Part shown: in pieces, positions 21,760 to 22,089 of the stretch | Numbering within the stretch: position 1 is the first letter of the stretch | How the letters are laid out: each line of letters begins with the position of its first letter | Origin: Actinomycetota bacterium | GTDB lineage: Bacteria > Actinomycetota > Aquicultoria > CAJVYJ01 > JAUVQD01 | DNA length: 40,685 nucleotides | Direction: 5' to 3' | NCBI GenBank assembly: GCA_030679975.1 | Contig: JAUXSL010000062.1 | Coordinates: 1-40,685, forward strand | Notes under the pieces: generated by a model | Seen by the model: the letters and a program-made list of their open reading frames with translations, nothing else | What the model was told of the DNA's origin: nothing | The model's database searches: none | Position numbers and translations under genes: made by a program

Positions 21760-22089
21760 TAGCGGGGACAGGATTTGAACCTGTGACCTTCGGGTTATGC
21801 ATACCACTACAGCTTTAACTGCTTCCGACCTGTGCCTGAATTTGTGGTCTGGACTTTCCCTTCACCCTCGGCGTTACCGTTAGGGTGCCTGCCATCAAGT
21901 CTCTACACCTTCTCTGCGCACATGCCCAGAGCTTGGCTCGGGATTACCGCGCCACCGGCTTCCCCGAATTTGGCAAGTTTCACACGCAAGTTTCCCTGCG
22001 CGCAGCCCATTGCAAGATCCAGAAGAGGCGTAACAAACTCGGATCTTGCGGATTGAGCCCGACGAGCTACCAGACTGCTCCACCCCGCG
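21760..22089 (-). tRNA. Initiator tRNA-fMet(CAU), interrupted by a group I intron
   Basis: The 5' exon is 22056-22089 and the 3' exon 21760-21799. Joined, they give a 74-nt tRNA: acceptor CGCGGGG/CCCCGCT with a C1-U72 mismatch, D arm GAGC/GCTC with a 9-nt loop, anticodon stem TCGGG/CCCGA with loop CTCATAA (anticodon CAT), and T arm ACAGG/CCTGT with loop TTCAAAT. The mismatched first pair and three G-C pairs in the anticodon stem are hallmarks of bacterial initiator tRNA. CCA is not encoded. The intron splits the anticodon loop between T33 and C34. Confidence 0.95.
21800..22055 (-). ncRNA. Group I intron (256 nt, IC3-like) in tRNA-fMet
   Basis: The 5' exon ends in U and the intron ends in G, the two group I rules. 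Conserved core elements are visible: P4 TCGGG (21963-21967) with CCCGA (21938-21942) in the AATCCCGAGCCAAGC-type Q block; P7 GACTT (21897-21901) with AAGTC (21852-21856), followed by CAGACCAC; and P8 CACCCT (21882-21887) with AGGGTG (21863-21868). These blocks resemble those of cyanobacterial and plastid tRNA-Leu introns, and group I introns in tRNA-fMet are known from cyanobacteria. It encodes no endonuclease. Self-splicing is likely but inferred. Confidence 0.92.

Follow-up and report, generated by a model that had tools for sequence, protein, structure and literature searches.

A group I intron of the tRNA-fMet family in the initiator tRNA gene of an Actinomycetota genome

The initiator tRNA gene (tRNA-fMet) of the window, which is the whole 40,685-nucleotide stretch of DNA analysed here, is split in its anticodon loop by a 256-nt group I intron. 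The feature is confirmed as a genuine tRNA-fMet group I intron; the element is of a known kind, and its host is unusual. The intact core, the pairing of the guide with both exons, exons that join into a correct initiator tRNA, the lack of a second tRNA-fMet gene in the draft genome, an empty site in a relative, and an I-Ssp6803I homologue in the intron of another were observed directly, and the explanation that joins them to splicing and a history of homing is, as a whole, very probably correct. The precursor RNA would bind guanosine in P7, the chain would be cut after U33, and U33 would be joined to C34 with release of the intron, so that translation initiation would rely on the ribozyme. The endonuclease-bearing form of the intron would home into the nearly invariant anticodon arm of tRNA-fMet and thus spread the intron family. 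The window copy would have lost the endonuclease gene and would now be fixed because of splicing.

ARAGORN finds no tRNA in the whole window unless introns are allowed; it then places a tRNA-Met(cat) at 22089-21759 of the minus strand, interrupted by an intron of 256 nt. The Rfam group I model RF00028 matches positions 21835-22035 of the minus strand with 54.3 bits (gathering score 50) and an E value of 3.3e-11. The first-pass annotation had described an initiator tRNA split by a 256-nt group I intron between T33 and C34, with a 5′ exon ending in U and an intron ending in G. The same boundaries were found, and the strand, which it did not give, is the minus strand. The joined exons read as tRNA-Met(cat) and give a complete cloverleaf with the anticodon CAU and the hallmarks of a functional initiator tRNA: three G-C pairs in the anticodon stem (GGG/CCC), an unpaired C1/U72, and A11-U24. 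The CCA end is not complete in the gene. Standard tRNA annotation would list no initiator tRNA in such genomes, and tRNA-fMet introns explain this apparent absence. In the work on tRNAscan-SE 2.0, such introns accounted for the lack of fMet or Ile2 in 36 genomes, with Gloeobacter and Synechocystis named for fMet (PMC8450103).

All helices from P2 to P9 can be drawn in the window intron (Table 1). The core P3-P9 contains the guanosine site in P7, the 5′ splice site is marked by a U.G pair, and the last base of the intron is G. Across 13 related introns, pairing holds in 96.4% of helix cells. Two-sided changes occur at 26 of 53 pairs, whereas shuffled controls give 14.4 such pairs and slid controls 2-7. 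P3 has two-sided changes at four of its six pairs, with 100% of cells paired. In P7, GACU/AGUC is invariant and the fifth pair varies as U-A, G-C, or C-G. The guide AUGGGC pairs across the junction of the joined exons and provides both P1 and P10 (AUG/CAU); its one departure from full complementarity is the U.G pair at the 5′ splice site, where such a pair is expected.

Table 1. Features of the split tRNA-fMet locus (window coordinates)
Feature	Position	Strand	Basis
Terminator-like hairpin and T run directly 3′ of tRNA-fMet	21735..21749	-	Alone not above chance
3′ exon of tRNA-fMet, begins with anticodon CAU, ends A73-C74	21759..21799	-	ARAGORN
Group I intron, tRNA-fMet family, 256 nt	21800..22055	-	RF00028, 54.3 bits; cyanobacterial-fMet-only model, 201 bits
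Terminal guanosine of intron (omega G)	21800	-	Sequence; invariant in 13 relatives
P7, guanosine-binding helix (21897-21901 with 21852-21856)	21852..21901	-	Covariation
P8 (CACCCU/AGGGUG and CGG/CCG)	21863..21887	-	Helix alignment of 13 introns
P3 (21972-21977 with 21888-21893), encloses P4, P5, P6, and 5′ strand of P7	21888..21977	-	Covariation
P2, 8 bp, GAAA loop	21983..22002	-	Two-sided changes at 8/8 pairs, 13 sequences
Guide AUGGGC, pairs with joined exons GCU|CAU	22005..22010	-	Sequence; GGGC invariant in 13 fMet introns
P1 extension, perfect 9-bp stem GCAAGAUCC/GGAUCUUGC	22012..22049	-	Sequence, comparison with full introns of relatives, fold
5′ exon of tRNA-fMet, up to U33, end GGGCU	22056..22089	-	ARAGORN with intron; both halves 100% to joined tRNA
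tldD-type metallopeptidase gene, divergent neighbour of tRNA-fMet	22157..23599	+	Pfam PF19289, PF01523, PF19290; synteny

The window intron belongs with the tRNA-fMet introns best known from cyanobacteria (Biniszkiewicz 1994; Paquin 1997, both through PMC8450103, PMC5733544, and PMC1995217). It lies at exactly the U33/C34 junction of the cyanobacterial loci, a comparison that the first-pass annotation had proposed. A covariance model built solely from cyanobacterial tRNA-fMet introns scores it at 201 bits, the tRNA-fMet intron of a genome of the same class (G027) at 211, and those of Bacteroidota at 191-197. The same model gives 115-123 bits for tRNA-Leu(UAA) introns, and part of this margin is due to the 15 positions of 3′ exon that the model includes; the tRNA-Asn intron of the host genome itself scores 36.5. 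When the intron core alone is compared, the window intron is 74-81% identical to most tRNA-fMet introns and 60-65% identical to tRNA-Leu introns. Its identity is 81% to Oscillatoria, 79.5% to G027, and 56% to the tRNA-Asn intron of its own genome. The closest kin of the core are tRNA-fMet introns and not tRNA-Leu introns. Of the suggested resemblance to tRNA-Leu introns, the general core stands, as both are found by the same model, whereas the tRNA and the site in the loop differ. The tRNA-fMet introns of Synechocystis PCC 6803 and other cyanobacteria share with the window intron the tRNA, the insertion site, the core, the guide logic, and the P1 extension. In contrast to them, the window intron has an Actinomycetota host, is 256 nt long, lacks an endonuclease gene, and is at best about 81% identical in the core.

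The tRNA-fMet intron of G027 is 652 nt long and carries an open reading frame in P1, which is where the window intron has its P1 extension. The encoded protein matches I-Ssp6803I, a PD-(D/E)XK homing endonuclease (PDB 2OST; Pfam PF11645), over its full length with an E value of 4.6e-65. The Synechocystis tRNA-fMet intron, which encodes I-Ssp6803I, has 655 nt and an ORF of 150 codons (PMC1995217), which sits in P1 and overlaps P1/P2 by 61 nt (PMC3073962). No ORF of the I-Ssp6803I type was found in the 256-nt window intron. Its P1/P2 region holds at most an in-frame tail of 12 codons, ILQWAARRETCV-stop, compared with ILQWAARKETFV-stop in G027. This tail may be what is left of a lost gene, or constraint on the RNA may account for it. 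From its P1/P2 region, the window copy looks like an endonuclease-less derivative. The endonuclease is not a criterion of membership in the family, because most of the cyanobacterial tRNA-fMet introns found are likewise without it.

The family is sparsely distributed. It is present in two of 397 sampled Actinomycetota genomes (the host genome and G027), 13 of 244 sampled Cyanobacteria, and 11 of 396 sampled Bacteroidota, where one intron of 669 nt (among L281-L291) has an I-Ssp6803I-like ORF. The expectation of tRNA-fMet introns in cyanobacteria was sound, and the family is not confined to them. Weaker matches in the 397 genomes come from introns of tRNA-Asn, Thr, Tyr, and Gln. When the whole collection was scanned with a pattern for split tRNA-fMet arms, mostly tandem intact genes were listed; once the true introns were sorted out, the matches listed included at least ten cyanobacteria and at least one Saprospiraceae genome with the same junction. 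In a metagenome-assembled genome of Algoriphagus (L130), there is an array of degenerate fMet-like fragments with a GC-rich repeated insert, which is not a group I intron. BLAST against phages and plasmids gave no match to the intron at the fMet site, and the 3′-end pattern was not found in viral contigs. Stretches 71-75% identical to the intron core, without fMet exons, occur in a 735-kb phage (H1, LR756501) and in Bradyrhizobium plasmids (H21-H24), and are probably group I introns of other genes.

The endonucleases of tRNA-fMet introns from all three phyla are related and 54-73% identical to the G027 protein. In a genome of the same order as the host (G006), the tRNA-fMet gene beside tldD is intact and intronless, and thus represents an empty site. 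The patchy distribution, the common endonuclease, and the empty site speak for a lateral movement of the family. Vertical inheritance from an ancestor common to these phyla, with loss in most lineages and no recent transfer, would account for the identical insertion site everywhere, and one origin per phylum is compatible with the tree of 41 introns, in which the window intron has no resolved position; the same three observations make it improbable. A wider proposal is put forward tentatively: that a single mobile lineage has crossed Cyanobacteria, Bacteroidota, and Actinomycetota by endonuclease homing into the initiator tRNA where its sequence is most conserved, and that hosts with one tRNA-fMet gene would initiate translation by way of the ribozyme, which could be a control point. 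In the part of the literature covered, tRNA-fMet introns are described as cyanobacterial, and no mention of Actinomycetota or Bacteroidota as their hosts was found. Now that they are seen in both phyla, together with this family of endonucleases, the idea that an intron spreads laterally through a universal tRNA can be put to the test.

The host genome (G000) is a draft of 127 contigs and 95.8% completeness, so a further tRNA-fMet gene could lie in the part that is missing. A second intact tRNA-fMet gene, which the first-pass annotation had named as grounds for giving up its reading, was looked for in this genome and not found. No intact fMet arm is present with up to two mismatches allowed, and BLAST of the spliced tRNA gives the two exon halves at 100% and then weak matches only. 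The remaining CAT tRNAs resemble Ile2 and elongator Met, and tRNAs for all 20 amino acids are otherwise present. Since the only initiator tRNA gene found is the split one, the start of any protein should depend on self-excision of the intron, as far as gene content can tell. It is very unlikely that the split gene is dead and that another, intact initiator tRNA gene serves in its place, given these searches, the otherwise full tRNA set, and the undecayed exons and catalytic core. Bypass of a split copy can happen, as suggested by G015 of the same class, which has an intact intronless tRNA-fMet and, just upstream of it, a decayed copy whose insert looks like the beginning of the intron (L237).

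The first-pass annotation had described the genome as apparently of actinobacterial type, and the distribution of WhiB places it in the phylum Actinomycetota. WhiB was found in eight of the phylum genomes tested and one Acidimicrobiia genome, and among 14 controls in Corynebacterium alone; it is absent from nine of nine tested genomes of the window's class and from some others of the phylum. The divergent pair of tldD and tRNA-fMet is common to G001 of the same family, G006 of the same order, and G015 and G027 of the same class, with tldD identities of 42-74%. The contig is therefore native, and a cyanobacterial contaminant binned into an Actinomycetota genome, which the up to 81% identity to cyanobacterial introns might suggest, is refuted by this synteny in four same-class genomes; the window exons are also 95% identical to those of G006 and do not match the cyanobacterial form (CGCGGGATAGAGC), and the intron is equally near to those of G027 and Bacteroidota. 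The contig of G001 ends beside tldD at nucleotide 33 of tRNA-fMet, one base short of the insertion site (L240), possibly an assembly fork at the edge of an intron. Elsewhere in the window, an ORF for a HicA-like toxin (PF07927) lies at 21170-21412 on the minus strand. Its antitoxin is not evident, as the ORF downstream of it (20664-21173) has no Pfam match.

For group I introns in bacterial tRNAs, a review names cyanobacteria and the alpha- and beta-proteobacteria as hosts (PMC4033280). In the host genome, the only tRNA-Asn(GUU) found is likewise split by a group I intron of 84 bits, which is 282 nt long by ARAGORN (G000:C38:226-509, L001). In further genomes of this class and phylum, the genes for tRNA-Asn, Thr(UGU), Tyr, Ser(GGA), and Gln(CUG) contain group I introns (L051-L060, L066, L221, L224, L228, L229). 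These five tRNAs fall outside the intron hosts that are usually listed.
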